From the NCBI GenBank assembly GCA_021815365.1, contig JAKAGZ010000008.1, positions 5,894 through 69,893 on the forward strand: a stretch of DNA of 64,000 nt, read 5' to 3'. The translations under genes were made by a program, and so were the position numbers. The notes under the pieces are model-generated. The model was given only the letters and a program-made list of their open reading frames with translations. It was not told the origin of the DNA and ran no database searches. Positions 1,097 to 63,584 of this stretch are shown here, in pieces; positions within the stretch are counted from its first letter, which is position 1, and every line of letters starts with the position of its first letter. This stretch comes from Bacteroidota bacterium. GTDB lineage: Bacteria > Bacteroidota > Ignavibacteria > Ignavibacteriales > Ignavibacteriaceae.

Positions 1097-2011
1097 CTAA
1101 AGAGTAGCTTTCTTCCCGCTCTGCTTCAATAAAAATTCCTGCAACTTATTCAAACTTCCTCTGGCATTTTTTCTGCCATTGATGTGTTTATCTTTATCAA
1201 CGATGTTTCCATTTTCATCAACAATACCCTGATGGCAGAGGTAGCAGGCAGTTAAAGGCGCATCAATATGACCGGTCGGGGGAAGCCCATGGCAGGTTCC
1301 GCAGGAATCCTGTGAACCGTCCATCTTATTCCATATCGGCGAAAAATTATTTCCAACCATTTTATCCGAAGTATATGCAAACTGATTTGTAGGAATTGCA
1401 TCGGACTTTTTAAATTCAAAATTTCCATGGCAATAAATATTTGAGCAGGTTAAAGCTCTGACATCAAAACTTGCATTGGCTGCAATGCTGGTATCTGCCA
1501 ACCCCGAAAAATTTATCTCGGCGGGAAGTTGTTCAATGTGACCAGGGTCGCTCATTTTTTTCGGTACGATGTGGCAGTTCGAACATCTCACTATTCTTCC
1601 TAATGTGTTGGTATACAAATGGCTTGAATGTGCGCCAACTCCCGGTGAGCTTTCAGAGGTTCCACCGTTTGTGTCTCTCGGCGGTGCAATCTTTGAAGGA
1701 TCAGAAAAATCTCCGTGACATGTATTGCAGGCTTCAGGACCGGCTGGCTGTGTATGACATTTGAAACAACTCTTCCCTGTTATACCTCCTTTGTAATCTG
1801 CTGCGTGGCACTGAATACATTCTTTCATACTCCAGTTGTTCAATCTCACAAGGTTGCCGTGGAAGTTTGGTGAGTTTACGTCTTTGATTCCTTCTTTATG
1901 AACGCTGAGGACGGGTGCAGTTGTCGGTATATCTTTCCGCAGGTCACTGCAGCCGAAAAATATTAAAGCCGGAAAAAATATCAATATGTAATATTTGAAA
2001 ATCAGTTTCAT
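1097..2011 (-). CDS. Heptaheme c-type cytochrome lipoprotein (CxxxxCH/CxxCH family)
   Basis: A 304-residue secreted cytochrome. A hydrophobic leader ends in LIFFGC, a lipobox-like site that predicts lipid attachment at the outer membrane. There are seven heme-binding sites: CIQCH, CFKCH, CNTCH, CSNCH, the extended CSNIYCH (four residues between the cysteines), CGTCH and CYLCH. The CX4CH site followed by a CxxCH site is characteristic of the Geobacter C4xCH/C2xCH family (TIGR01904), which includes outer-surface electron-transfer cytochromes. The gene overlaps the 14-heme gene upstream by four bases (ATGA), so the two are probably coupled. By analogy to porin-cytochrome conduits it is the likely outer-surface partner; that topology is inference. 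Confidence 0.85.
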   Translation of the reverse strand: MKLIFKYYILIFFPALIFFGCSDLRKDIPTTAPVLSVHKEGIKDVNSPNFHGNLVRLNNWSMKECIQCHAADYKGGITGKSCFKCHTQPAGPEACNTCHGDFSDPSKIAPPRDTNGGTSESSPGVGAHSSHLYTNTLGRIVRCSNCHIVPKKMSDPGHIEQLPAEINFSGLADTSIAANASFDVRALTCSNIYCHGNFEFKKSDAIPTNQFAYTSDKMVGNNFSPIWNKMDGSQDSCGTCHGLPPTGHIDAPLTACYLCHQGIVDENGNIVDKDKHINGRKNARGSLNKLQEFLLKQSGKKATL

Positions 2012-3243
2012 TTCTTTGGTGCCCAGTATAATCTTGCATCTGATCCGTGACAGTAACCGCAGAACCCCACACCGGGCGGAGTTCTTGGCGAAGCGTTTGT
2101 ATGACAGTTAAAACAAATTGAAGCGTCAGAGTCGTGCCAGTCGCCGTGCGTATCTCTCATAAAACCGCGCGGATGAGTTTTAGGATTTGTCCCTTGTATT
2201 CCGTCGCTGTCGAGATGACAGGTAATGCAGGTTGGGTCAGCACCCTGAACATCGTGACAGGAGGCACAGGTTTCGATATCTCTTCTTGCTAAAGTAGCGT
2301 GAACACCGCCGCCGCTGCCCACACCGATCGTTACAAAATCAGGTTTTAAGTGCGAAGCGGGTTCAACTCCGCCTAATGAATAGTCAGCGTTATTTGACTG
2401 ATGACAGCTTGTGCAGAATGTTTCCAGGTCGTGACAGGTCTGGCATTGTGAAGCTTTTCCTTTTGCATCTATTCCGTGAGTGAAGCGGTAGCCCAATTGG
2501 TGAACTGTTGTTATCTGCTGCTGTTTTGTACCATCAACAAAATTTGAAGGCGAATACGGCTGATAAAAATTATTTTTCGTATTTTTTTCTGTTATCATAT
2601 TTGTAGCAGCATGACATACCTGGCAGGAAGAATTATCATGGCACATTGCACAGTTTGCATTAATAGAATTTGCTGCAAACTTATGACTGATTTTCCATGA
2701 AGGAACTTTGTGCGAAACAGGAATTAAATTCACTGTTGATGAATGACAGGATTCACAATTATTTGTTGCAACTGATTTGTTGTTATGGCAGGAGTAACAA
2801 TCCTCCATCACAGGGTTTGTCTGTTTTGCTTTGAAAGCATAATCAACTTTATCTATTCCTTTATGACAGGTTTCACATTGTATTTTATTCTTTGTAACAT
2901 GAAGACTGTGATTAAAATATCCGTTAAAAGGTTTTTGCTGAATGAGTGGTTCATTCACTCCATCGAAATGACACTTGGTGCAGTTTTTTTCATCCTGAAC
3001 ATCGTGACAACTGCCGCAACTTTCGTGATCGGGTAAAAGCCTGTCGTTTATTTTTGTGCTTGTTTCAACTTTTGTATGACAGGATTGGCAGTCAACACCG
3101 TTATCCGAATGCAGTTTGTGCGAAAATTTTATGATCTTATCATTGTGCTGTACATCGTTCGATTGGTTTTCTTTAAATGCAGATAGAAAAAGAAAAATTA
3201 AAACCGAAGGTATGAAAGCGATATATAAATATTTTAATTTCAT
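2008..3243 (-). CDS. Periplasmic multiheme cytochrome c with 14 CxxCH motifs
   Basis: Fourteen CxxCH heme sites run the length of this roughly 411-residue protein, from CQSCH to CGYCH, with many distal His residues (SHK, NHS, THG) as likely axial ligands. It resembles cytochrome c3/c7-type multiheme repeats. The chosen start is the ATG at 3243 (MKLKYLYIAFIPSV), which gives a clean signal peptide or membrane anchor. A TTG 33 bases upstream would overlap the barrel gene. It lies 11 bases after the barrel gene and overlaps the lipoprotein cytochrome by four bases. In a conduit model this is the periplasmic heme wire that docks to the barrel. Confidence 0.88.
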   Translation of the reverse strand: MKLKYLYIAFIPSVLIFLFLSAFKENQSNDVQHNDKIIKFSHKLHSDNGVDCQSCHTKVETSTKINDRLLPDHESCGSCHDVQDEKNCTKCHFDGVNEPLIQQKPFNGYFNHSLHVTKNKIQCETCHKGIDKVDYAFKAKQTNPVMEDCYSCHNNKSVATNNCESCHSSTVNLIPVSHKVPSWKISHKFAANSINANCAMCHDNSSCQVCHAATNMITEKNTKNNFYQPYSPSNFVDGTKQQQITTVHQLGYRFTHGIDAKGKASQCQTCHDLETFCTSCHQSNNADYSLGGVEPASHLKPDFVTIGVGSGGGVHATLARRDIETCASCHDVQGADPTCITCHLDSDGIQGTNPKTHPRGFMRDTHGDWHDSDASICFNCHTNASPRTPPGVGFCGYCHGSDARLYWAPKK

Positions 3244-3254
3244 TTTATATCTGT

Positions 3255-4526
3255 TCAAAAGTTTGTATTGAACCAATAATTCGCCTTAAGGAAAATCCTG
3301 AAATCATTCCTGTAAATTTTGTTGTCCATATATTGTCCCTGCAGGTCAAAAGATAAAATCCTGAATGGTCGGTAATTGAAGCCAGCGAGTATTGTAGTCA
3401 GATTATTTTTTTGATCACCTGCAGCAAGCCGGTAACTCGTATAAGAAATTCCCGCTGAAGGAGTAAATATTCCTTCAAAGAATGATCTTGCAGAATAAAG
3501 AGACAAAGCATCAAGTTCGCCGGAATAACCAAAAGTTTTGCGGTAACTTATACTTCCGAAATCTGTATTCAAACCCAGGCTTGCCCTTTGAGAATTATCG
3601 TCTCTGTATTTTACATTTCCATACCGTGCTGAGAACCAAACAGATTTATTAAAGAAATAATCTGCGCCTAACTCATACTCCTGTGTATTTCCATAATCGA
3701 AAACTGAAAAGATAGAATTGTATCTTATCAGCGGAGCTCTGTAATTATAATAAGCGGTAAAATGTATATTTTCCAGTTGTTCATAAGTTCCGCTTAACTC
3801 AAACCTGGATGTCTGCTTGAAATTTAAATCGTAGTTATACCTTGAATCAAAAGTAATTACATTTTCCAGGTTATAAATAACATAAGCACTGAGGAACTGG
3901 AATTGATTTGAATTGTTACGTATCAAAACCTGTATGGGGTTCAGGTCAGCATCGAGCCTTGTAGCCCAGTATTCCTGGGGTTTAAAATTTTTATTGATGT
4001 ATTCTAAGCTGATAAAAAAATTATTGATAGCTGATGTTGAAAATTTTCCCCCGGCAATAAAATCATTATTCCAGCCGCTGCTGATCTTAAATTTTTGATA
4101 AGCAGGCACGTTGAAACCATAATAGCCTGTCAGCAGCCAGGAATCTTTTCTGTAGTCAATATTTATTCCATCAAAAAGCCCTGCGGCAACAGAATTAAAT
4201 AATGGCTGCCTGCCAAGTTTGATCGTGAAGGCTTTCAGCAGGTCTCTTCCTTCAAGATAAAAATTATAAAGCCGCAATCTTGGATCGCCAAGCTGAGGAT
4301 TTATTATGTCGTGTTCTAAATTTAAAAATGTTCGCAGTGAAAAATTATTTTTATTTAAATTCAGGATAACAGATTGGAATGCCCTGATATGCTTTTCAGA
4401 TGAAGAGGCGGAATCAAATCTTTCAAATGTATAATAGGAAGATGATATCCGCCCGTTCAAATTTTGTGGAAAGGCTGAAACTAAAAAACTGATAAAGAAA
4501 AAAAATAAGTATAAAATTCTTTTCAT
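3255..4526 (-). CDS. Outer-membrane beta-barrel protein of the cytochrome cluster (porin of an electron conduit)
   Basis: A 423-residue protein with an N-terminal signal peptide (MKRILYLFFFFISFLVSAFPQ). The rest consists of alternating hydrophobic/polar strands rich in Tyr, Phe and Asn and ends in ...LKANYWFNTNF, a typical aromatic C-terminal strand. There are no cysteines for heme. Its size and position, directly upstream of a 14-heme and a 7-heme cytochrome gene on the same strand, fit the porin of a porin-cytochrome conduit, although no direct similarity to MtrB or OmbB can be claimed by eye. Some segments (KLGRQPLFNSVAAGLFDGINIDY) recall alginate-export or phosphate-type porins. Barrel: fairly sure; conduit role: inference. 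Confidence 0.75.
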   Translation of the reverse strand: MKRILYLFFFFISFLVSAFPQNLNGRISSSYYTFERFDSASSSEKHIRAFQSVILNLNKNNFSLRTFLNLEHDIINPQLGDPRLRLYNFYLEGRDLLKAFTIKLGRQPLFNSVAAGLFDGINIDYRKDSWLLTGYYGFNVPAYQKFKISSGWNNDFIAGGKFSTSAINNFFISLEYINKNFKPQEYWATRLDADLNPIQVLIRNNSNQFQFLSAYVIYNLENVITFDSRYNYDLNFKQTSRFELSGTYEQLENIHFTAYYNYRAPLIRYNSIFSVFDYGNTQEYELGADYFFNKSVWFSARYGNVKYRDDNSQRASLGLNTDFGSISYRKTFGYSGELDALSLYSARSFFEGIFTPSAGISYTSYRLAAGDQKNNLTTILAGFNYRPFRILSFDLQGQYMDNKIYRNDFRIFLKANYWFNTNF

Positions 4527-4564
4527 ATTTTTTACAACAAAATTTCAGCAGCCTGACTGATTTT

Positions 4565-5131
4565 CTACTTTGCAGCAGGAATTACGTGTTTAATTTTTTC
4601 CCACATTGCAGCAAAGTTTGCCGTCTTCTCATCGAAAGTCGGGCTATCAGAATTATGGCAGGTTTTGCACAATGCGACCCGTTCTTCTTCTGTACTATAA
4701 AAATGCAAGCCATTGGCGATAGCTTCTTTTTTGTCTTTCATTATTTTCAGTGTTTTATAATCTGCGCCGGGTCCGTGACAGGTTTCACATTGTACACCAT
4801 CTTCCATTTTGAATTTTGGACCTTTGAGAGATGCATCAATATTGTAACCGCTAACATGACATTTCAGGCAGGCTTCAGTTTCAACAGCTTTGGTTGTGAA
4901 GCCTTTTGCTTTTGCAATGCTGTCAGCTTTTTCAGTCTTTAACGTTTCATAAGCTTTTGCATGTGCGCTTTCTTTCCAGATAACAAACTGCTTTCCGGCT
5001 TTTTCTGTTTTATGGCACATTCCGCAAACCTCAGCTCCGACATAAGCATGTTTTGATGGTGCTTCTGTGCCTTGTGCAAGAAGCATTGGAGCTGTGAAAA
5101 CTGCAACTATAAAAATAATTTTCTTTAACAT
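4565..5131 (-). CDS. Tetraheme cytochrome c, c554-like
   Basis: A 188-residue secreted cytochrome with a signal peptide ending near MLLAQG and four heme sites, CGMCH, CLKCH, CETCH and CKTCH. The pattern YVGAEVCGMCHKTEKAG...W..S.HAKAYETL is typical of the cytochrome c554 family, where W-x-x-S-x-H precedes the second heme. A GGTGA Shine-Dalgarno-like stretch lies a few bases upstream of the ATG. It sits between the T9SS nonaheme gene and the barrel gene, 38 bases before the latter, so it probably carries electrons through the periplasm towards the conduit. Redox partner and direction of flow are not visible. Confidence 0.85.
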   Translation of the reverse strand: MLKKIIFIVAVFTAPMLLAQGTEAPSKHAYVGAEVCGMCHKTEKAGKQFVIWKESAHAKAYETLKTEKADSIAKAKGFTTKAVETEACLKCHVSGYNIDASLKGPKFKMEDGVQCETCHGPGADYKTLKIMKDKKEAIANGLHFYSTEEERVALCKTCHNSDSPTFDEKTANFAAMWEKIKHVIPAAK

Positions 5132-5297: not shown

Positions 5298-6998
5298 TTA
5301 CTTTATTAATACCATCTTCTTGACCATATTGAAATTCTTAGCTTCTATTCTGTAGAAGTAAATTCCCGAAGCTAAGTTAGAAGCATTCCAGGTATATCTG
5401 TATGTTCCTGAAGTCAGATAATCATTTACAAGCACTGTTACCTGTCTGCCTATTGCATCATAGATAGTCAGTTTAACATTGCCTGCCTCTGGAAGTGTAA
5501 ACTTAATTTGAGTCGAAGGATTGAATGGGTTCGGATAGTTCTGACTCAAACTGTACTGTGCAGGTATGCTGTTTGATTCTTGTTTAATGCCTACAGTAGG
5601 CGTGAAGAATAATATAGAAGCTTTTAGCAGCTTCTGTGTTAATCTTGTGTTATGAATACCCTGACTTTTATCTTCTATAACAGAACGCAGATTGAAGTTA
5701 GCTTTTTTGAAAGCGTCTGTAGTTGAATCAGCCGTAGTTGCCTTATTCAATCTGTTCTGAAGAACAGTAATTAAACTATCAGTTACAGTCTGAACTCTGC
5801 GGTAATCAAACATAGGTTCTTTAGTTCGCCAGCCTGTAGTGTCTACTGCTGACAGGTAATCCGCATGGCAGGTCAAACAAGCTTCTGGTCTTGGTGCAAA
5901 TGTATGACCTTTCGAGAAGTTACCTAATTCGTTCTTACCGTTCCTATTCATATGGCAGTTAATGCATCTTTCTGTTGCAGCATAAGTATGAGCTGAATTC
6001 TGGTAAACTGTGTCCATTCCAATAGATCTTAATTCTGCTGCTGTATATCTGTAGCCGAAAACTTTGCTTCCGCTCAGTGCAGCAGAAGGCATATTATGTG
6101 GAGTTGAATTGTAATTAACAGTATCGGTTGTGATTTCCGGGTTATGGCACTTGTCGCACACTGTAACCGAGCTTGATGTAGCTACTCTCACTTGGTGTTC
6201 ATTCCCGTTTCCATGAGGATCGTGGCAGACAACGCAGGTGATTGGTGCGATGTCAGGGTTATTGCTATCTATCAAAATTTTATCAGTATATGGTTTACCT
6301 TTATCAGCACCAGTAAAGAAGCTGCCATTTAAGAATGCAGCGGCATTTTGTGCTACGTGACACTTTGCGCAGCGGGCATTTTTTGTAACAAAACCGTTGG
6401 AAGCATTTAGTGACAGGGCATGTCCTGAAAGTTTCCATTCATCATAATCGCCATGATATTTTCCTGTATGACAAACGCCGCAAAGCTCAGCCTGATAATT
6501 TAATTTGTTCGTTGAGCTGAATGCAAAGTGCTTATCATAATCGGTTGTTAATGTATCAGTTGCTGTAGGATCATACTTTCCCAATGGTCCGTGACAAGCT
6601 TCGCAGCCAACATTTTTTGTCCTGTTCCAATTGTAAGTATCGGTTGGCTTGAAATCAGGATGGAGTGAAGTATCCTGAACAACATACTGATCAGCGCCAA
6701 AGTACCCTGTAGTATCTGTTGGGTCCCAGCCTGTCGTATGACATTTTAAGCAGCGATATCCAAAATGATTAGATTGAGCATAGCCGGAATCCGTTGCAAA
6801 AGAGTGCTTTGTGAATTTCCAGGTATCGTATTTGGGGGAAGCAATACCTTTTGCAGTATGACAAGATGCACAGGAAATACCCTGATTGCTTATATCAGCA
6901 TCAGTCCCTGTGCCGAGATAATAATTTTTAGTCTGCCCAAAAGTAAAAGCAGAAACTAAAATTATTACAAAAGCAGAAATAAGTAATTTAATTTTCAT
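5298..6998 (-). CDS. Nonaheme cytochrome c with C-terminal T9SS sorting domain
   Basis: About 566 residues. The signal peptide is MKIKLLISAFVIILVSAFTFG; the ATG at 6998 is preferred over the upstream ORF start at 7040 because it gives a clean signal sequence and follows a G-rich ribosome-site-like ACGGGG. Nine CxxCH sites follow: CASCH, CLKCH, CEACH, CGVCH, CAKCH, CVVCH, CDKCH, CINCH and CLTCH. Spacing and the W-x-x-S-x-H elements recall c554/NrfA-like multiheme proteins. The last 80 or so residues are a T9SS sorting domain (LSQNYPNPFNPST, then VKLTIYDAIG and GIYFYRIEA, ending KKMVLIK). It should therefore be exported through T9SS and fixed at or released from the cell surface. A cytochrome with this route is unusual. 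It is the first gene of the minus-strand electron-transfer cluster. Confidence 0.9.
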   Translation of the reverse strand: MKIKLLISAFVIILVSAFTFGQTKNYYLGTGTDADISNQGISCASCHTAKGIASPKYDTWKFTKHSFATDSGYAQSNHFGYRCLKCHTTGWDPTDTTGYFGADQYVVQDTSLHPDFKPTDTYNWNRTKNVGCEACHGPLGKYDPTATDTLTTDYDKHFAFSSTNKLNYQAELCGVCHTGKYHGDYDEWKLSGHALSLNASNGFVTKNARCAKCHVAQNAAAFLNGSFFTGADKGKPYTDKILIDSNNPDIAPITCVVCHDPHGNGNEHQVRVATSSSVTVCDKCHNPEITTDTVNYNSTPHNMPSAALSGSKVFGYRYTAAELRSIGMDTVYQNSAHTYAATERCINCHMNRNGKNELGNFSKGHTFAPRPEACLTCHADYLSAVDTTGWRTKEPMFDYRRVQTVTDSLITVLQNRLNKATTADSTTDAFKKANFNLRSVIEDKSQGIHNTRLTQKLLKASILFFTPTVGIKQESNSIPAQYSLSQNYPNPFNPSTQIKFTLPEAGNVKLTIYDAIGRQVTVLVNDYLTSGTYRYTWNASNLASGIYFYRIEAKNFNMVKKMVLIK

Positions 6999-7388
6999 GA
7001 TAACCCCGTAAAGTTTTAGTTGTTGATCTTTAATTGTCAAACTTTTTACTCAAATACTAAACCATTTATTTTATTTTCAAAACATTCAAAATTCGCAGCT
7101 TTTATTGTCGTTTAAGAGAATATTATTTCCTGATTTCTCTTATCGAAGAAATTTTTTTTAGAGAAAAATTATCAGAATTTTTTCTGAGGGATTATAATGA
7201 TTAGTTTTTTCATAAATAGTATTTTGGTCGCCGTAAATATTCTGTTCATAATTTAATGAATGTTCCCTTTTTAAAATTTACAATCAGGTAATCTCACAAC
7301 GAGACCCTCGAAAATTTATTTAGCGCTCATTTTCGAAATATTTTAATGGCATTTTAATTGAATTATTCTGCTAAAATACTTTTATGGA
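6999..7388. other. Divergent intergenic region
   Basis: An AT-rich 390-base gap between the minus-strand cytochrome cluster and the plus-strand dockerin gene. It must hold both promoters. TTTG-like elements occur near 7040-7060, but no convincing Bacteroidota -33/-7 pair could be fixed by eye, and no other gene is seen. Confidence 0.5.
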
Positions 7389-9551
7389 ATGAGAATATCT
7401 GAGGGCATTTTAGCTTTTATCTTTTTATTATCAGTTAACATCTTTTCTCAGCAGGGTGGCTATACGAACAGCCTTTCTGTTCAGAATGGAGATGTATTAA
7501 ATTTTTATATATCCACCTCAGCCAGCCAATATCAAATCCGGATTTACAAGCTTGGGTTAAACGCAGGTTTAGTTTATACATCGCCGAATATTCAGGGCGG
7601 TGTAAGAAGTATTCCTAATAATGCATCATCAAACGGATGCAACTGGCAATTAAGTTATTCAATGACAGTTCCATCAAACTGGGAGCCGGGAGTTTACAGT
7701 GCAGAATTTCCAGTTGGTTCTGGCAATAGTCAAAATAACGGGACAATAATATTTACTGTGAAAAATACCTTGCCGGGGACATATTCAAAACTGCTTGTTG
7801 TGTTAAGCACAAACACAATGCAGGCTTATAATAATTATGGCGGGAAAAGTTTGTATGATTTTAACTCAACTGCCGGAAGAGCGAGTCAGGTTTCATTTCT
7901 AAGACCGTATACGGCAGATGCGATAGATGATTATTACAGCAGGATAAGTTATCTGGTTGACTGGCTTGCTTTGAATAATTTAACAGCAGAATATTGTGTA
8001 GACAACGATCTTGATAAATTTCCAAATCTCCTGAATAATTACAGCGCTGTTGTTTATGCCGGTCATGATGAATACTGGTCACTTGAAGAAAGGACGCAGG
8101 CTGAAAATTATGTTGCCGGCGGCGGTAAATTAATTTTACTTTCAGGAAATACAATGTGGTGGCAGGTCCGGTTTACAAATAACAATCAGACAATGATATG
8201 TTACAAAGATAAAAATCTTGACCCGCTGACCGGTGTGGATAATACAAGAGTTACTGTTAATTGGTATGATTCTCCTGTTAACAATCCTGAAAACTCCATC
8301 ACAGGCGTAAGTTTTAGATTTGGAGGATATGTAAATGACGGAAATAATCTTCCTGCATCTCAAGGCTATGGTGATTACACAGCATATAATACCCAGAGTT
8401 GGGTCTTCGATGGAACAGGATTAGAGGAGGGCGATCCGGTTGGAACTGTAGTCCCTGTTGTAGGTTATGAAGCTGACGGAGCTGTATTTAACTGGCAGAA
8501 TGGTATTCCTGTTGTAAACGGTATAGGGGGTACTCCTTTAAATTTCAGAATACTCGGTCTTTCTCCTGCAGTTACAGATAATCCAAATATTGCGACCAAT
8601 ACTCACGCTACAATGGGAATATATACAAACACAAATGGCGGTGCAGTTTTTAATGCTTCGACCACCGATTGGGTCAGAGGATTAGATTCTGATCAGGTAG
8701 TTCAGAAGATTACGTATAACGTAATAAATAAATTTTTACAGAACAGAATTCCGCCTGAGATAGTTTCATGGCTGCCTAATAATGTAAGCAGTGCAAATAT
8801 TCATAACGAAAATGTTTTCGTCAGTAACAGAAATATAACTCTTACAGGGAACTCGCTTAATTTCAGTGTAGCTGCTGAGGACCCATATAACAATACGCTT
8901 GGATATTTCTGGACTATTGACGGAGCCGTTGTTTCACATCAACAGTCTTTCACGTATTATAATAACAGTCCTTCAGGAGTTAAGACAGTTACAGCTTATG
9001 TTTATAATTTAAAAGATACGTCATCAATTTCCTGGAATCTGACAACAGTTAATAATAATCCCGTTTTCACTTTAAGCGGCAAAGTAATTTATGATAATAA
9101 AAGCGGCACATCATTTTCTCAAACTGAAATTTTATTGATTCCGACAGCGGGCGGCGATACACTCTCGGTTATGACTGACAGCTCCGGCAATTTTTCTTTC
9201 TCAGGGATTTTTGCAGGTAGTTATAATCTTTCAGCACAGGTTACTAAATTATTTCCTGTAAACAGTGTTAACGGTACAGACGCATTATTAATTCTGAAAA
9301 CCTTCGTTGGGCAATTAACTTTATCAGGATTAAAAGCAAACTCAGCAGATGTTAATAACGATCAGCAAGTAAATGCCGGCGATGCATTATTTGTTGTAAA
9401 AAGATTTGTCGGTACAATCAATTCTTTCCCAAAAGGGAACTGGATTTCTGAAACTGATCACATCACAATTACAAATCAGAATTTGACAGGACTCAAAATA
9501 AATGTTATTGCAACAGGTGATGTCGATGATTCAGCAGCCGGGGCTTACTAA
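7389..9551 (+). CDS. Secreted N,N-dimethylformamidase beta-like protein with C-terminal dockerin-type repeat
   Basis: A 720-residue secreted protein with signal peptide MRISEGILAFIFLLSVNIFSQ. Residues from about 25 to 460 match the N,N-dimethylformamidase large-subunit-like fold: YQIRIYKLG near the start, then VVLSTNTMQAYNNYGG, YAGHDEYWSLEER and LLSGNTMWWQVRF. This family is widespread in secreted proteins and rarely a true amidase. An Ig-like segment follows, then a carboxypeptidase-regulatory-type unit (SGKVIYDNK...GNFSFSGI). A dockerin-like region near residues 620-675 has one good calcium loop, DVNNDQQVNAGD, and a degenerate first repeat. Unlike its neighbours it has no T9SS tail and ends GDVDDSAAGAY. 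The next gene carries a cohesin-like domain, so the two may dock outside the cell. Confidence 0.75.
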   Translation: MRISEGILAFIFLLSVNIFSQQGGYTNSLSVQNGDVLNFYISTSASQYQIRIYKLGLNAGLVYTSPNIQGGVRSIPNNASSNGCNWQLSYSMTVPSNWEPGVYSAEFPVGSGNSQNNGTIIFTVKNTLPGTYSKLLVVLSTNTMQAYNNYGGKSLYDFNSTAGRASQVSFLRPYTADAIDDYYSRISYLVDWLALNNLTAEYCVDNDLDKFPNLLNNYSAVVYAGHDEYWSLEERTQAENYVAGGGKLILLSGNTMWWQVRFTNNNQTMICYKDKNLDPLTGVDNTRVTVNWYDSPVNNPENSITGVSFRFGGYVNDGNNLPASQGYGDYTAYNTQSWVFDGTGLEEGDPVGTVVPVVGYEADGAVFNWQNGIPVVNGIGGTPLNFRILGLSPAVTDNPNIATNTHATMGIYTNTNGGAVFNASTTDWVRGLDSDQVVQKITYNVINKFLQNRIPPEIVSWLPNNVSSANIHNENVFVSNRNITLTGNSLNFSVAAEDPYNNTLGYFWTIDGAVVSHQQSFTYYNNSPSGVKTVTAYVYNLKDTSSISWNLTTVNNNPVFTLSGKVIYDNKSGTSFSQTEILLIPTAGGDTLSVMTDSSGNFSFSGIFAGSYNLSAQVTKLFPVNSVNGTDALLILKTFVGQLTLSGLKANSADVNNDQQVNAGDALFVVKRFVGTINSFPKGNWISETDHITITNQNLTGLKINVIATGDVDDSAAGAY

Positions 9552-9741
9552 CTTATAAAAAAAGTTTACTGCCAACTCTATTCATCCTGGAATTTTTTTT
9601 GATTAAAACCGTTAGAATTTACTAAATGAGAAATGTTTATAAATGAAACACATCAGATGATAAACCAATCCTAAAAGTGCCAAAAATAAACCATAATTAA
9701 ATGATTTTGCTGGCATTCAACTTGAATCAATACAGGAAATT

Positions 9742-12700
9742 ATGGTGAGGTGCAATTTGAAAAAATTATTACGAACAAGACCAGTTTTAATGCTGTTATT
9801 AATTATAATTTCATACCCTGTGCTTGGTCAAAGTTCAACCCCGACAGTTTACATAGAAAGTAATATAACCGCTCCTGCGATTGGTCAGCAGGTGACTATC
9901 CCTTTAAAATTTAAAAACCTTCCGAATGTAGGCTCAGTAAGTTTAAAAATAATTTTTGATACTAGCGTTCTGGATTTCGTAAGTATTACCGACAATCCAA
10001 ATCACGGGACATTTGTTACCAACAGCGATCTTGCTTCGCTTGGCGGCGTGCATGATACAATAGCAATTGCATGGTTTGATACGAACCCTATCAGCTTTAC
10101 CGATGGACCTTTCGTAAATTTACATTTTACTTACAAAGGAGGAACAAGCACTTTTCATTTTTTGCCATCACCGGTAAGTTCACTCAGCGATCAGAATGGA
10201 ACCACGATAAGTAACTTAATGCTAAATGATGGATCTATTGTACCTCCAACTCCTGCACCAACCGGTTCAATAGGAGATTACGTTTGGATTGACGCTAACG
10301 GAAACGGGATACAGGATCCTGGCGAGCACCCCCTTGCAAACGTAAAAGTTTTTTTGCTTAACGGTTCAAAAGGAATAACAATTGATTCAACAACTACAGA
10401 TGCCCAGGGAATTTATTCATTTGCCGGTTTAGCTCTTGGAAATTATAAAATTAAATTTGCAGCCCCAACAGGTTATGTGATAAGCCGTCAGCATACTGGA
10501 GGCAATTCTTCTTTGCTGGGCGATTCGGACCCTGATTCATTATCAGGTATTACTGATACAGTACAGATTGTATCCGGCTATTTAAACAGATACGATATTG
10601 ATGCAGGGATGCACATTCCGTTCACTGCACCTGTGCCGACTGGGGTGATCGGAGATTATGTTTGGAACGATGCAAACGGAAATGGTATTCAGGATCCCGG
10701 TGAACCGTCCCTTGCAAATGTGACTGTTAAATTGTTAGATCCTAATAATAGCAATGCAGTACTGAGTACAGCAACGACAGATGCCTATGGGAATTATCTT
10801 TTCTCAGGATTAAATGTTGGCATATATAAAATTCAATTTGTTGCGCCATCAGGTTATGTGATAAGTCGTCAGCATACAGGCGGAAATTCTTCCTTGTTAG
10901 GTGATTCAGATCCTGATTCATTATCAGGAATTACCGACACTGTGCAGGTCGTCTCCGGTTATTTAAATAGATATGACATTGATGCCGGAATGCACATGCC
11001 ATTCGGAAATCCTGTGCCTACAGGTTCAATTGGTGATTATGTTTGGGAAGATACAAATCAAAATGGAATTCAGAACCCCGGGGAAAATCCTCTGGCAAAT
11101 GTTAAAGTACGTTTATTGAATAGTTCTAATGATAGTGTGCTTGATTCAACAACTACTGACGCACACGGAAATTATTTGTTTAATAGTCTGGTGTCTGGCT
11201 CATATAAAATTCAGTTTGTGCTTTTAAGTGGATATGTATTTAGTCCAAAACATGCAAACAACGGGCTTTCGCCTGAAGGCGATTCAGATGCAGATTCAAC
11301 TACCGGAAAAACTGATGTGATTGTTTTGACTGCTGGGCAGAGTCTGTATTCTGTAGATGCAGGAATGTTTAAACCTGTTGTAGTTGTACATAAGCCGATA
11401 CCAACTATAAATATGATTGATGGAATAGATATTGTTCCTGATTCAGGACAAACATATAAATATACTCTCGTTGTCAAAAACACTGGTGATGCAGATTTAT
11501 TTAATACATCCGTAACAGACTCAATTCCCGGTGGATTAAAATATAAATCAAGTACCGGCGGAAGCTCTTCAGGCGAAACAACTCAGGGAAGTAATATTGT
11601 TATTTATCAATTAGGAACTTTAGCTGCTGGCCAGACTGATACCTTGATACTCGTTGTTGAAGTTTCAGGGCACGAAGCCGAATATAAAAACAGCGCATCT
11701 CTTTCAGGAACAGATGCGGGATCAAATTCATATTCTGATTATGTATTTGATATTAACTTTGGCAGCGATAACAGCGGCGGCGGCGGCTCAGGTGTAGAAT
11801 CAAGAGGTAACATGGCTCAGGCTCTGTTAAACCGTCTGCTTCGTCTGCAGAGTGGAATGATAATTCCTATGTTAGCAAAAACGGGAGTAGAAAATCTGTC
11901 GGCGCAGCATTCTTTGCAGGAAGTAATTCCTGTGTCTGGCCCTTATGCATCTAAACCTGTTGAGACAACACCTTACGATATTTTAGGAATATCAAATGCA
12001 GTTTCAAGTTATGCTGTGGACTATGACATAACTACAAATGAAAGCACAACCCGAAGAGTAGCTGGAATTTTTTCTGCTATCACACCGGCGCCTGATATTT
12101 ACGATCATTCAAAAGCAGTCTGTGACAGATTAGCTGGCGCACAGATAGATGAGATTAAGCTTGTTAATATTAATGGCTATCAGTTTTACGCATCAAAATT
12201 AGAAAAGATAAATGCGGCTATTGTTGATTATGCGATTTCATTCAGTGTTTATGAAACCGGATCAGAATATTATGTCCAGAATAAATGGACACATGATGAA
12301 TACAAGGCTCCTGCCGGTGCAACTAACGTTTACAACTTCCAGGTTTGGTCAGGCTCTTATGAGAATTCAATAAGTCTTGTTAAACAAATATTAACAAAGT
12401 TCGCCTCATTCAAACCATTGAATTATATGAATACTCTGCAGACTGTCCCTGATACTTATATTAAAAATTCATATTACTCACACGACGGCAAAATCCATCT
12501 GACTTTGTTTAACAGCGGATCTTCTAAAGATGTGACATTTAATATAAAGTACCGAAACTCACAGGGCGATATTCAGATCAGCAGGACAGATAATTACAGC
12601 ATAAACACCGGCTTAAATGATGTTGTGATCAGCAGCGGAATAATCTCTGATGCAAATGTATATCTTACACAGCCGGGAAACTTTGAAGACGAAGTTTATG

Positions 12701-13494
12701 TAAGCGGCGGCGCATATACTTATGCAATGGGCCCAAACAGTTCAGTGTCATCATTTAACACTTCCGGTTATCCACAGGAACAGATCAGCAATTATCCAAA
12801 GGGAGCGCTGGTTCTGGCTGGCGGTGCAAGTTTGTCAGGGCAGCTAAAAGATTATGTTTCAGTAATAAGATCTCTCAGCACGAATGGCAGTGCTTATGAT
12901 TTGAGCAAGTACAACAGTATAAGATTCACTGCAAGCGGTACTGGTAAGCTCGACGTTCTCTTAATTATGACGAATACAAAAAATAATAATTACTATCACT
13001 ATACAATTGATCTGACTTCGGCTGCTAAAGAATATGTAATTAACTTTAGTGATTTTAAGGAATTGTACGGAGCGCAGACACCATTTGACGCAAGCAAGAT
13101 GATGAATATCGGTTTCTCAGTAAATACAACAAACAACCCTGCATTGAGCAGCTTTAATTTTGAAGTTAAAGACATTGCCTTCTATTCACCGGGCAGCGTT
13201 ACTGCTGTAGACGATCAGACAATTGCACCAAAAGAATTCAGTCTTTCACAGAATTACCCGAACCCGTTCAATCCGTCAACTGTAATTGAATTTTCTGTTG
13301 CCAGGAAAGAGCATATATCACTGATCGTTTATAATTTATTAGGGCAGCAGGTTGCTGCTCTGATTGACGGAGAATTAGAAGCAGGTAAACACAGCATAAC
13401 ATTTAATGCAGATAACCTGGCGAGTGGTGTTTATTTCTATAAGCTGATTGGAAATTCTGTTAACATTACGAAGAAGATGATTCTGCTTCGTTAA
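9742..13494 (+). CDS. Giant cohesin / SdrD-B repeat / T9SS surface protein
   Basis: 1,250 residues with signal peptide (LMLLLIIISYPVLGQ). Domains in order: a cohesin-like domain about 33-170 (TVYIESNITAP.IGQQVTIPL, then SVSLKIIFDTSVLDFVSI, DGPFVNLHFTY); three SdrD-B-type repeats starting near 174, 301 and 428, each opening GDYVW-D-N-NGIQ-PGE; a DUF11-like segment near 553 (YTLVVKNTGDADLFNTSVTDSIP); a glycine-rich linker; a central region of unknown fold (about 690-1150); and a T9SS sorting domain from 1166 (FSLSQNYPNPFNPST ... KKMILLR). It is likely a secreted, surface-attached scaffold or adhesin. The cohesin-like head and the dockerin of the upstream gene suggest a matched pair; calcium dependence and specificity are inference. 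Confidence 0.85.
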   Translation: MVRCNLKKLLRTRPVLMLLLIIISYPVLGQSSTPTVYIESNITAPAIGQQVTIPLKFKNLPNVGSVSLKIIFDTSVLDFVSITDNPNHGTFVTNSDLASLGGVHDTIAIAWFDTNPISFTDGPFVNLHFTYKGGTSTFHFLPSPVSSLSDQNGTTISNLMLNDGSIVPPTPAPTGSIGDYVWIDANGNGIQDPGEHPLANVKVFLLNGSKGITIDSTTTDAQGIYSFAGLALGNYKIKFAAPTGYVISRQHTGGNSSLLGDSDPDSLSGITDTVQIVSGYLNRYDIDAGMHIPFTAPVPTGVIGDYVWNDANGNGIQDPGEPSLANVTVKLLDPNNSNAVLSTATTDAYGNYLFSGLNVGIYKIQFVAPSGYVISRQHTGGNSSLLGDSDPDSLSGITDTVQVVSGYLNRYDIDAGMHMPFGNPVPTGSIGDYVWEDTNQNGIQNPGENPLANVKVRLLNSSNDSVLDSTTTDAHGNYLFNSLVSGSYKIQFVLLSGYVFSPKHANNGLSPEGDSDADSTTGKTDVIVLTAGQSLYSVDAGMFKPVVVVHKPIPTINMIDGIDIVPDSGQTYKYTLVVKNTGDADLFNTSVTDSIPGGLKYKSSTGGSSSGETTQGSNIVIYQLGTLAAGQTDTLILVVEVSGHEAEYKNSASLSGTDAGSNSYSDYVFDINFGSDNSGGGGSGVESRGNMAQALLNRLLRLQSGMIIPMLAKTGVENLSAQHSLQEVIPVSGPYASKPVETTPYDILGISNAVSSYAVDYDITTNESTTRRVAGIFSAITPAPDIYDHSKAVCDRLAGAQIDEIKLVNINGYQFYASKLEKINAAIVDYAISFSVYETGSEYYVQNKWTHDEYKAPAGATNVYNFQVWSGSYENSISLVKQILTKFASFKPLNYMNTLQTVPDTYIKNSYYSHDGKIHLTLFNSGSSKDVTFNIKYRNSQGDIQISRTDNYSINTGLNDVVISSGIISDANVYLTQPGNFEDEVYVSGGAYTYAMGPNSSVSSFNTSGYPQEQISNYPKGALVLAGGASLSGQLKDYVSVIRSLSTNGSAYDLSKYNSIRFTASGTGKLDVLLIMTNTKNNNYYHYTIDLTSAAKEYVINFSDFKELYGAQTPFDASKMMNIGFSVNTTNNPALSSFNFEVKDIAFYSPGSVTAVDDQTIAPKEFSLSQNYPNPFNPSTVIEFSVARKEHISLIVYNLLGQQVAALIDGELEAGKHSITFNADNLASGVYFYKLIGNSVNITKKMILLR

Positions 13495-43627: not shown

Positions 43628-45595
43628 TTACTTCAATAATACAAGCTTTTTAGTTGAAATAAAGTTACCGGATTCAATCCTGTAGAGATAGACTCCGCTT
43701 GCGAGCTGTCCCGCATCAAATCTTACTACGTAAGTGCCTGCAGGTTTTACCTCGTTAACGAGAGTTGCTACTTCTCTGCCAAGAATATCATAAACTCTCA
43801 GAGTTACCAGTCCCTGCTGCGGTAAAGTGTACCTGATATTGGTACTCGGATTGAAAGGATTAGGATAGTTCTGTGAAAGTTTATATTCTTTCGGCAGAGT
43901 TGAAGTATTATTCTTTACATCCGTAACAACCGCAGCGCTTGTCTGTATCTGCAATGCAGTTGGCTGGCTGCTGCTTAATGATGACCATATTGTTACCTGC
44001 TGCCCTGCTGATAATGATGTTGAGCTTATGGGTTTAAAGTTAGCATCAAGTACAACAGTGCTTGCAGTTATCTGGTAATTAGGTGCCGAAACAGTTATTG
44101 AATTTGAAGTAACAGAGGAAACAATACCTGTGGTCTGCGAAATATCAGGATCGTCTTCAATGCTGATTATCAGTGCAAGATAAGAACCGTTATTCTGCAG
44201 TAAAGCTTTTATCTCGACCTTCATATTTACCTTCAGGTCGCTTAATGCAACCGCGCTGTCTGCTTCGTTAAAATATACAGTGTGCGCGCTTACAATTACC
44301 TTAAGACCTGAAACTGTCAGCGTATCTCCGCTTATAGCAGTAATAGCACCGGAAATATCTGTTTCATGTGCACCGATCATTTTTATTCTCTTTGCGAGCA
44401 GTGTGGAATCAGATCTCATAATTGCATGTATTTCTACTCGTTGACCGACTAAAAGAGATGCAAAAGTAACCGATACGTTTGTCGAATCATAAATTTTCGT
44501 CTGGCTGTCCACATAGTATCTTTTATTTGTTACAACTATGAAGTCACTTCCTACCGTATCTATTATTCCGGTAACTTCAATTTTAGGACGCCAGAAATCT
44601 TTTATCCTGATCCTTCTTGCATGATAAGTTCCGTCTAGGAGTTTTACGCCTTTTACTTCTACGATCATTCCTTTTTTCAGGTCGTTAAATGTAAGCAATG
44701 TTCCGTGGGAATCTTTTATTTCTGTCGTGGAATCGGTGGAGAAAGTAATACCTGCAACGATTATGCTGCTGGTCATTATGCTGTCAATCGGGGCTGTAAT
44801 TTCAATCTGCTTTTGTTCAGGTGCTTCAACTTTAATTCGTAAAGCAAGGTATGAACTGTCAGGTTGAATTTTTGCTTTTACTTCTACCTTCATTCCGACA
44901 GCGAGATCACTGTAAGTAAGAAGCTTGTGATCGTCGCCAAAAATTTCAGTCTGAGTATTTACGGTTACTTTAGTTCCGCTTACAGAAAGTGTATCGGCAT
45001 TTTTTACTTCGATAATACCTTCGAGCTCTATCTTACTGTCTTCGGCTTCTCTTTCCGTTTCTAGTTTTATTTTTGTGGCTAAGAAAGTTTTGTCTGGTCT
45101 TACAACGGCATGTATTTCAACTAAGTCGTTCACTTTGATCATTGACAGGGTTAATGTCGAGTCGTGCTCTCCCCTGATGATCGTTGTGCTGTCGGTATGA
45201 AATACCATATTATGTACAACCAAACTATCACCGCCGACAGACTGAACGGCGCCTGATATTTCAAATTCGTTGTCTTCTGTTTTCAGCATAATTCTTTTAG
45301 CAAAGTTGGTGCTGTCGCTCCGCTTAACGTACATTATTTCAACTTTGTCTCCAACGTGAAGATCGTTGAATGAGAGAACAGAATGTAATTGATTTCTTAT
45401 TTCGGTTGTACTGTCAACGAAGAAGGTCTTGCTGTTCACCACCAGGCTGTCTTTTCCTATTGACTGTATCAGTCCTGAAGTTTCAAATCCATCGTGGTCG
45501 TCAGAAGGTGTAGCAAACAGGTAGGCGGGGGTTAATAAAAATAAAATAAATAATATTATTAAATAAGGGCTGAGAGTAAATTTGATCTTTTCCAT
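43628..45595 (-). CDS. T9SS-secreted protein with seven tandem DUF5666 repeats
   Basis: 655 residues from the ATG at 45595, selected because AAGGAG lies 5-6 bases upstream; the ORF extends further without a ribosome site. Signal peptide (LIILFILFLLTPAYLFA). Seven units of about 70 residues follow, each of the type (I/V)-SG-I-sV-DSLvV-...-T.I...-l.f.dL.vG..VEi.a....ds..lA..I (DUF5666). The C-terminus is a T9SS sorting domain (LSQNYPNPFNPST; VTLRVYDILGREVATLV; KKLVLLK). DUF5666 is a small beta-barrel OB-like fold of unknown role. The protein likely forms a rod at or outside the outer membrane. Confidence 0.9.
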   Translation of the reverse strand: MEKIKFTLSPYLIILFILFLLTPAYLFATPSDDHDGFETSGLIQSIGKDSLVVNSKTFFVDSTTEIRNQLHSVLSFNDLHVGDKVEIMYVKRSDSTNFAKRIMLKTEDNEFEISGAVQSVGGDSLVVHNMVFHTDSTTIIRGEHDSTLTLSMIKVNDLVEIHAVVRPDKTFLATKIKLETEREAEDSKIELEGIIEVKNADTLSVSGTKVTVNTQTEIFGDDHKLLTYSDLAVGMKVEVKAKIQPDSSYLALRIKVEAPEQKQIEITAPIDSIMTSSIIVAGITFSTDSTTEIKDSHGTLLTFNDLKKGMIVEVKGVKLLDGTYHARRIRIKDFWRPKIEVTGIIDTVGSDFIVVTNKRYYVDSQTKIYDSTNVSVTFASLLVGQRVEIHAIMRSDSTLLAKRIKMIGAHETDISGAITAISGDTLTVSGLKVIVSAHTVYFNEADSAVALSDLKVNMKVEIKALLQNNGSYLALIISIEDDPDISQTTGIVSSVTSNSITVSAPNYQITASTVVLDANFKPISSTSLSAGQQVTIWSSLSSSQPTALQIQTSAAVVTDVKNNTSTLPKEYKLSQNYPNPFNPSTNIRYTLPQQGLVTLRVYDILGREVATLVNEVKPAGTYVVRFDAGQLASGVYLYRIESGNFISTKKLVLLK

Positions 45596-45840
45596 AGTAA
45601 CTCCTTTTTTGTAAAATATAACATAACATTTAACATCCCGGAACACTTTTGTTCCACATAACCTATGCCCTCAAATATCAGGATATTATTTCATTTTTCC
45701 TCCTGTCATTGGTTATTTCAGATAATAAGTGCATCAAGCGTAAAAGAAGTGACAACTCTTTATGATTTTTTATGAGTTAACTTAACCTTAAATTTACGCA
45801 GGCAAAAGTCGTATAAAATATAATAATTTTAGAGGGACAG

Positions 45841-62384: not shown

Positions 62385-63584
62385 ATGAAAACCAGGAGCT
62401 TAACTTTTGCTTTATTACTTTCGCTGACTTCATATATATTTCCGCAGGCGGAGGGTGCTGTTCCGTTTTTAACTATTCAGCAGTCCCCGTTTTTGCAAGG
62501 TGCAGGACAAACCGGAGTTGCAATTATTACTAACGATCCCATCGGTTTCTATTATAATCCCGCAATATTAGGTCTTACTGCAAGGACAAATCATGTATCA
62601 CTTCTTTTTTTACCCAAGAAAGTAGACTGGCTGGGATTTAATGGTATAAGCATCAACTCTTATGGATTTAACTTTGGATATAATTTTGATAAAAGCATTC
62701 CTTTGTCTGTTGGTGCTGGATTCATACATAATAATTTTAAGTATGATATTTATCAGGATGAATCATTTAATAGCTTCAGTATAGGTGCAAGTCTCAATTA
62801 TCCTGTATCACTCAGCTTAGGTTTTTCCCTAAAGAAATTCAGTTCTACTTTTTTTGGTACAACGATGGTTAATCCGGATTCTATTCGAGCCTATGAGGCT
62901 TCCGGCACAGCTTATGACTTTGGGGCATTAGTGAATGTGCCGGTTTCTGATTTACTTTTTAAGGATGCCAGGTATGATTTTAGTGATGAATCCTTTCTCG
63001 CACCAAAATTTAATTTTGCTCTGGGTTATTCGCTTACAAATTTAGGCAAGGAAATTTCTTATTCAGACCGCAATCAGAAAGACCCTATCCCACGAACAGC
63101 AAAACTCGGTTATTCGTTCAACTTCGGGTTTGATTATAATTTTAATGGAAAAAATATTTCAATTTTCGATTATACTTTTACCGCTGAAGCGTCTGATATA
63201 CTTGTTCAGCGCGACAGTAACCGTAATCTTACTTATAAAGGTTTGCTTGGCGATATTAATATCTGGAAGAATCTCGTTGAGCTGAAGTATGATAATAATA
63301 CAATAATTCACAAAGGACACATTTTTAATTTATTTGAAACCATCAGGATTGCCTTCGGTAATTTTACCGGTAAGGGATATGAAAATAATCCTAAAACCAA
63401 CGCTCTTGTTTTTTCTACTGACGGCTTGTTTAAATATTTTCACAACGCGGATGATAATTCCATTTTTGGATTTATCACCGGGCACATTTCAATTGAATAT
63501 ACAACGAGTACGATCTTTGCCGGAAGCGGGATTGATACGGACTATAAAGCAATATCATTATTCTATAAAAATATTGTGTTATAA
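62385..63584 (+). CDS. PorV/PorQ-like outer-membrane protein
   Basis: 399 residues with signal peptide (LTFALLLSLTSYIFPQ). FLQGAGQTGVAIITNDPIGFYYNPAILGL at the start is the N-terminal pattern of the PorV/PorQ (UPF0164-like) barrel family, followed by alternating beta-strands to the end. Relatives shuttle T9SS cargo to the cell surface, which would fit the sorting-domain proteins in this window; the assignment to T9SS is inference. GGAGGGG is an excellent ribosome site. Confidence 0.8.
   Translation: MKTRSLTFALLLSLTSYIFPQAEGAVPFLTIQQSPFLQGAGQTGVAIITNDPIGFYYNPAILGLTARTNHVSLLFLPKKVDWLGFNGISINSYGFNFGYNFDKSIPLSVGAGFIHNNFKYDIYQDESFNSFSIGASLNYPVSLSLGFSLKKFSSTFFGTTMVNPDSIRAYEASGTAYDFGALVNVPVSDLLFKDARYDFSDESFLAPKFNFALGYSLTNLGKEISYSDRNQKDPIPRTAKLGYSFNFGFDYNFNGKNISIFDYTFTAEASDILVQRDSNRNLTYKGLLGDINIWKNLVELKYDNNTIIHKGHIFNLFETIRIAFGNFTGKGYENNPKTNALVFSTDGLFKYFHNADDNSIFGFITGHISIEYTTSTIFAGSGIDTDYKAISLFYKNIVL

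Follow-up and report, generated by a model that had tools for sequence, protein, structure and literature searches.

A putative two-part surface-display system in an Ignavibacteriaceae genome: a single-cohesin anchor with a type IX sorting tail and a tail-less dockerin protein

Introduction

A putative surface-attached cohesin scaffold of the type IX secretion system (T9SS), accompanied by dockerin-bearing enzymes, has been proposed for Candidatus Stygibacter of the Cloacimonadota (PMC8542988). The scaffoldin of that system comprises 3755 amino acids with tandem cohesins and carbohydrate-binding modules (CBMs), and its cargo consists of glycoside hydrolases and peptidases (PMC8542988). No dockerin or scaffoldin domains were reported for the cellulases of Melioribacter roseus (PMC3534657), and a T9SS study of rumen Bacteroidetes reported neither cohesins nor dockerins (PMC5831590). 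Described here is a pair of adjacent genes, encoding a dockerin-bearing protein (protein 1) and a cohesin-bearing T9SS protein (protein 2), in a 64,000-nucleotide stretch of contig JAKAGZ010000008.1 (GCA_021815365.1, positions 5,894 to 69,893, forward strand; referred to as the window) from a bacterium of the Ignavibacteriaceae. The pair is likely to form a two-part surface-display system in which a T9SS anchor with a cohesin would bind tail-less dockerin enzymes.

Results

Features of the gene pair

The two genes are located on the same strand with a gap of 190 bp between them, in a genome of 3.09 Mb (110 contigs, 99.95% complete). Their features, in window positions, were assigned from open reading frames (ORFs), profile searches and AlphaFold2 (AF2) models, the latter rated by the predicted local distance difference test (pLDDT):

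7389 to 9551, +: protein 1, dockerin-bearing secreted protein without a T9SS tail, 720 amino acids (ORF, domain search; orthologues in genomes G135, G270 and G273)
7560 to 8687, +: DMFA2_C domain, N,N-dimethylformamidase beta-subunit-like (PF20254, E 2.2e-76)
9066 to 9548, +: C-terminal module, a transthyretin/CarboxypepD_reg-like domain with a predicted inserted dockerin and a natural C-terminus (AF2 pLDDT 93.2, VIA-align, excision test)
9264 to 9404, +: dockerin type I (PF00404, 27.5 bits against a cut-off of 22.9; genome match G000:C75:15157-15297; PDB dockerin matches)
9742 to 13494, +: protein 2, cohesin-bearing T9SS surface anchor, 1250 amino acids (ORF, domains, full-length orthologue in G135)
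9868 to 10239, +: cohesin head (PF00963, 36.1 bits against a cut-off of 24.1; AF2 pLDDT 81.7; cohesins as listed top PDB matches)
10264 to 11367, +: stalk of three SdrD_B-like repeats, outer limits approximate (PF17210, E 2.2e-87, three stretches)
11437 to 11730, +: DUF11 domain, residues 566-663 (PF01345, E 2.7e-13)
11791 to 13227, +: conserved anchor body of about 480 amino acids with a marginal CIA30 match near its end (25.3 bits; A6 profile in 10 of 80 family genomes)
13255 to 13491, +: T9SS type A sorting tail (TIGR04183, 40.9 bits against a cut-off of 23; PF18962, 39.2 bits)

A signal peptide was seen by eye in both proteins. In protein 1 it is followed by the DMFA2_C domain (residues 58-433), a weak PKD-like stretch, a CarboxypepD_reg match slightly below its own cut-off (residues 561-617) and the Dockerin_1 match (residues 626-672). 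The DMFA2_C domain, weakly similar to the large subunit of N,N-dimethylformamidase (6lvd), is the probable catalytic head. No match to sorting-tail families was obtained for protein 1 in a profile search at E values up to 1, and the protein ends in ...ATGDVDDSAAGAY. A frameshifted or missing tail was ruled out: the 190 bp downstream are too short for a tail of about 85 amino acids, and the tail-less end is kept in other genomes. The initial annotation had pointed to a calcium loop (DVNNDQQVNAGD) and the lack of a tail in this protein, both of which hold, without mentioning that only this loop, the second of the dockerin, is canonical. One canonical F-hand loop is thus present where two would be expected of a standard dockerin; the first loop (LFPVNSVNGTD) is degenerate, with the D1, N3 and D5 ligands and the D-x-N-x-D start lost, and is found in the same state in aligned relatives. 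The domain, in which helices are predicted, is accordingly described as a dockerin variant.

The cohesin-like head and T9SS tail that had been noticed in protein 2 were assigned to residues 43-166 and to residues 1172-1247 (Por_Secre_tail/TIGR04183), respectively. The possibility that the head would score as a non-cohesin Ig-like domain did not materialise: the head is recognised by PF00963, and the PDB list for its model is topped by type I cohesins (2vn5_A, template-modelling score (TM) 0.77), and the listed top matches are cohesins with TM up to 0.79. Protein 2 is not a scaffoldin with several cohesins, as it contains a single one. In a cohesin tree, nine of ten anchor heads were grouped, and the head from the window was placed apart with weak support. 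In families f13 and f8, the C-terminal body and T9SS tail of the anchor were also observed on proteins in which no cohesin head was detected (L127, G011:C23; L128, G193:C2); given these occurrences, a widespread surface protein may have gained the cohesin or, conversely, lost it.

Genome census

Searches of the window's genome with PF00963 and PF00404 returned one cohesin gene, that of the tailed protein 2, and two genes for dockerin proteins, neither of which has a tail. The count of further tail-less dockerin proteins proposed in the initial annotation therefore gave one: a polysaccharide deacetylase of 533 amino acids, encoded on a separate contig, which ends just after its dockerin module (...AAGDVSKSYIP) and in which the motifs invariant in the family, Asp-Asp and His-x-x-x-His, are retained. 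With random gene placement, the odds that a dockerin gene adjoins the single cohesin gene are about 0.14%, and chance neighbourhood was ruled out by this census together with the conserved operon described below. A DMFA2_C paralogue without dockerin in the same genome (G000:C107, 804 amino acids) has a T9SS tail. In a promoter and terminator scan of the gene pair, sites were no more numerous than in shuffled sequences.

Conservation of the operon in relatives

The gene order is retained in G135, a 'Bacteroidetes bacterium' metagenome-assembled genome (MAG; JACZTL01) of another genus of the same family. Its contig C12 encodes, in order, a DMFA2_C-dockerin protein (743 amino acids), after 16 bp a CotH/LTD-dockerin protein (918 amino acids) and after 217 bp a cohesin anchor (1224 amino acids); both dockerin proteins are tail-less and the anchor has a T9SS tail. 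Over their lengths, proteins 1 and 2 are 48.5% and 49.6% identical to their orthologues there. The two unrelated heads in this operon carry C-terminal modules that are 78% identical, and the third dockerin protein of the genome is again a deacetylase. A DMFA2_C paralogue in G135 is apparently split (L349, G135:C16), its domain ORF having a tail-less end and a T9SS tail lying in a different frame. The same adjacency of dockerin and anchor genes was found in G270 and G273, in which the anchors are cut by contig ends. On the deacetylase side, one named relative is an 'Ignavibacteriales bacterium' MAG; named relatives were few and served only in structure alignments and for their names. Among relatives, tail-less dockerin proteins also have CotH, GH18 or C39-like peptidase heads, so that display would not be tied to one chemistry.

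Co-occurrence of anchor and tail-less dockerin

In a comparison sample of 80 family genomes, tail-less C-terminal dockerin modules were found in 14 and the anchor in 12, ten anchors being called by the body profile and two (G266, G270) by cohesin and SdrD heads cut by contig ends. Both occur together in 11 genomes, the anchor alone in 1, the dockerin alone in 3 and neither in 65 (Fisher P 4e-10); within genus g134, the corresponding numbers are 4, 0, 1 and 8 (P 0.007). The sole anchor-only genome is G272, in which a contig end truncates the DMFA2_C-dockerin gene. G302, one of the dockerin-only genomes, encodes a protein of 245 amino acids made up of a signal peptide, a single cohesin that groups with the anchor cohesins in the tree, and a T9SS tail, and is a possible minimal anchor. 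The same genome holds a tail-less protein of 338 amino acids with a cohesin and a nested dockerin (L261 3841-4857, G302:C53), which looks like an adaptor. In the wider class, 84 genomes have both cohesin and dockerin, 58 cohesin only, 39 dockerin only and 64 neither, an overlap above chance (P 0.0012).

Exchange of sorting tail and dockerin

The 80 family genomes were searched for the catalytic domain of the deacetylase, and the C-terminal ends of the hits were read. Thirteen copies from 10 genomes terminate in a dockerin module and are tail-less, and 16 copies from 16 genomes terminate in a T9SS tail and lack a dockerin; no copy has both, no complete copy has neither, and four are cut by contig ends. 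The anchor is present in 9 of the 10 genomes with a dockerin deacetylase vs. none of the 16 with the tailed form (P 3e-6). DMFA2_C relatives without dockerin are likewise mostly T9SS-tailed, including the paralogue mentioned above. In its simplest reading, this distribution suggests that a dockerin takes the place of the sorting tail when a tail is provided in trans by a cohesin anchor.

Structure of the C-terminal module

In the AF2 model of the module, strands (residues 3-59) precede three helices (70-80, 88-94 and 104-114), which are followed by further strands (126-149). By VIA-align, a single transthyretin-like domain was recognised over model residues 1 to 150, with about 80 residues aligned (1qmu_A, Z 10.5, root-mean-square deviation (rmsd) 1.7); the match list, filled by this one domain, contains beta-domain folds and not dockerins. 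Only about 60 residues lie before the helices, so in the model the final strands have to be part of the beta domain, with the dockerin inserted within it. An excision test agrees with this arrangement. In the intact module the CarboxypepD_reg match covers profile positions 1-56 of 82; removal of the dockerin lengthens it to positions 1-79 (39.9 vs. 31.5 bits) and raises the NOMO2 score from 62.8 to 118.6 bits. In four relatives treated in the same way, two matches extended as well and two gained in score only. According to the model, then, the dockerin is nested in the transthyretin-like domain, a layout in which both dockerin ends are held by one beta domain and which appears structurally unusual. 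The module profile also matches known structures of X-dockerins (4wi0 at positions 20-114, and 2b59) and of type I dockerins. The likeness to the X-dockerin dyad is suggestive only: Foldseek matches to X-dockerin chains were of low TM and high rmsd, and here the dockerin lies inside the beta domain.

Other genes of the window

An accessory T9SS gene outside the pair indicates that the T9SS machinery is present in the same genome:

58274 to 59551, +: type IX secretion system plug protein (NF052315, 135.6 bits, cut-off 100)

Near it, an ORF at 62385-63584 gave a weak PorV match (37.9 bits, far under the cut-off of 250). A T9SS-tailed multiheme cytochrome with an MtrC/MtrF-like domain and nine CXXCH motifs, counted by eye, is encoded at 5298-7040 on the minus strand and is possibly a surface cytochrome delivered by the T9SS. 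It is adjoined, at 1097-5131, by three other cytochromes and an ORF of 423 amino acids without Pfam match, which may encode a beta-barrel. A further T9SS-tailed protein, of 672 amino acids with seven DUF5666 repeats, is encoded at 43628-45646 on the minus strand.

Discussion

Proposed display system and points against it

The idea put forward in the initial annotation, a T9SS-borne anchor recruiting a tail-less partner, gains from the census, the conserved operon, the co-occurrence in the family and the tail exchange, lines of genomic support that are not fully independent because ancestry is shared. Under the proposed mechanism, the T9SS would export the 1250-amino-acid protein and attach it to the outer surface, as its tail and the behaviour of the family imply, and the protein would present its one N-terminal cohesin on the repeat stalk. 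The 720-amino-acid DMFA2_C protein and the unlinked deacetylase, which lack a sorting tail and by sequence and model end in a nested dockerin, would bind this cohesin, so that the anchor's tail would act in trans to keep them on the cell surface. The tail-less enzymes might cross the outer membrane by co-export with the anchor, or be captured outside. A more specific version of the first route, in which the nested dockerin of the enzyme engages the cohesin in the periplasm and the anchor's one tail directs the complex through the T9SS, the dockerin serving as a surrogate T9SS signal, is offered only tentatively and is rather unlikely.

Several findings weigh against display through docking. 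The co-occurrence is clade-structured, and the P values given above therefore overstate it. The deacetylase gene tree requires just two to three exchanges, with one independent pair on well-supported branches, so that the exchange evidence is consistent but weaker than the counts suggest. The tree of dockerin modules neither unites the tail-less modules nor resolves them from tailed ones. In G260, a DMFA2_C-dockerin gene directly before an anchor-type cohesin head carries a T9SS tail too, and class-wide most dockerin proteins near cohesins also bear such tails. No cohesin was detected in G262 and G251, which have tail-less dockerins, nor in many dockerin-containing genomes of family f8. Four of the latter (G155, G171, G178 and G205) have 22-25 dockerin matches each and no cohesin by PF00963; in these, the dockerins may bind a different partner or serve another function.

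Alternative explanations

These f8 genomes, together with the degenerate calcium loop and the frequent occurrence elsewhere in the class of dockerins and cohesins in one T9SS-tailed polypeptide, would fit a situation in which both domains are calcium-stabilised structural modules with no affinity for one another and are adjacent through a shared surface-protein operon. This explanation is improbable, since the exact census, the conserved operon and the anchor-linked exchange of tail for dockerin would be unexpected under it; the occurrence of the same C-terminal module on several unrelated heads, with the close identity of the two in the G135 operon, also speaks against it.

The module occupies the exact place of the T9SS tail in orthologues and is present in G262 and G251, where no cohesin was detected, as would be anticipated if it were itself a cohesin-independent export or attachment signal. 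Against this, it has no sorting-tail similarity at the E values searched, it precedes a genuine T9SS tail in G260, G272, G261 and others, where a second signal would be redundant, and the anchor accompanies it in 11 of the 14 genomes having the tail-less form; a signalling role of this kind is quite improbable.

That the tail-less proteins remain periplasmic, with tails lost for another reason and the anchor binding something else, is very hard to credit, for although they have signal peptides (by eye) and no known outer-membrane export signal, their orthologues are T9SS cargo by their tails, and tail loss coincides with the gain of both the dockerin and the cohesin anchor.

Implications

If display through docking is correct, a Gram-negative bacterium would present enzymes on its surface by cohesin-dockerin docking through the T9SS, with the dockerin substituting for the sorting tail. 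Such a pair would constitute a natural plug-and-socket for surface display in T9SS bacteria, and counts of T9SS cargo based on tails may miss proteins attached in trans. It also raises the question of whether a protein carrying no tail of its own is exported by the T9SS. In a literature search that covered few subscription journals, neither an account of a dockerin replacing a T9SS tail nor a report of a dockerin inserted in a CarboxypepD_reg domain was found.

Comparison with known systems

The term cellulosome-like, used in the initial annotation, applies to the cohesin-dockerin principle and no further, there being one cohesin per anchor and no cellulases. Dockerin-bearing plant cell-wall hydrolases were absent from the genome, in which the DMFA2_C protein and the polysaccharide deacetylase were the only dockerin proteins found; the protein pair is not a cellulosome. 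Ca. Stygibacter resembles the present case in having separate secreted enzymes with C-terminal dockerins (PMC8542988). It differs in architecture, the anchor described here having a single cohesin, no CBM found and a partner with a nested dockerin, and in the comparative test of dockerin/tail substitution available here. The noncellulosomal cohesins of Archaeoglobus (2xdh) and of Clostridium perfringens GH33 (2vo8) likewise show the cohesin fold in a non-cellulolytic setting, whereas here a T9SS anchor and a tail-less candidate partner were identified in one operon. With T9SS type A cargo (TIGR04183), the system shares the tail on protein 2, on deacetylase orthologues and on paralogues of protein 1; protein 1 itself and the deacetylase of this genome differ in being without it.

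In the anchoring of clostridial cellulosomes (a type II cohesin paired with an X-dockerin; 2b59, 4wi0), a surface anchor also bears the cohesin and the partner ends in an Ig/CnaB-like module and a dockerin, to which the C-terminal module of protein 1 bears a suggestive likeness; the module profile matches 4wi0 across both parts. The dockerin of protein 1, however, lies inside its module and not after it, the modelled cohesin is nearest to type I, and the clostridial system uses a Gram-positive wall anchor in place of a Gram-negative T9SS anchor. A T9SS-anchored cohesin scaffold having already been proposed for Cloacimonadota, what distinguishes this locus from known cohesin-dockerin display is the single-cohesin T9SS anchor, the nested dockerin and the comparative evidence of interchange between dockerin and sorting tail.

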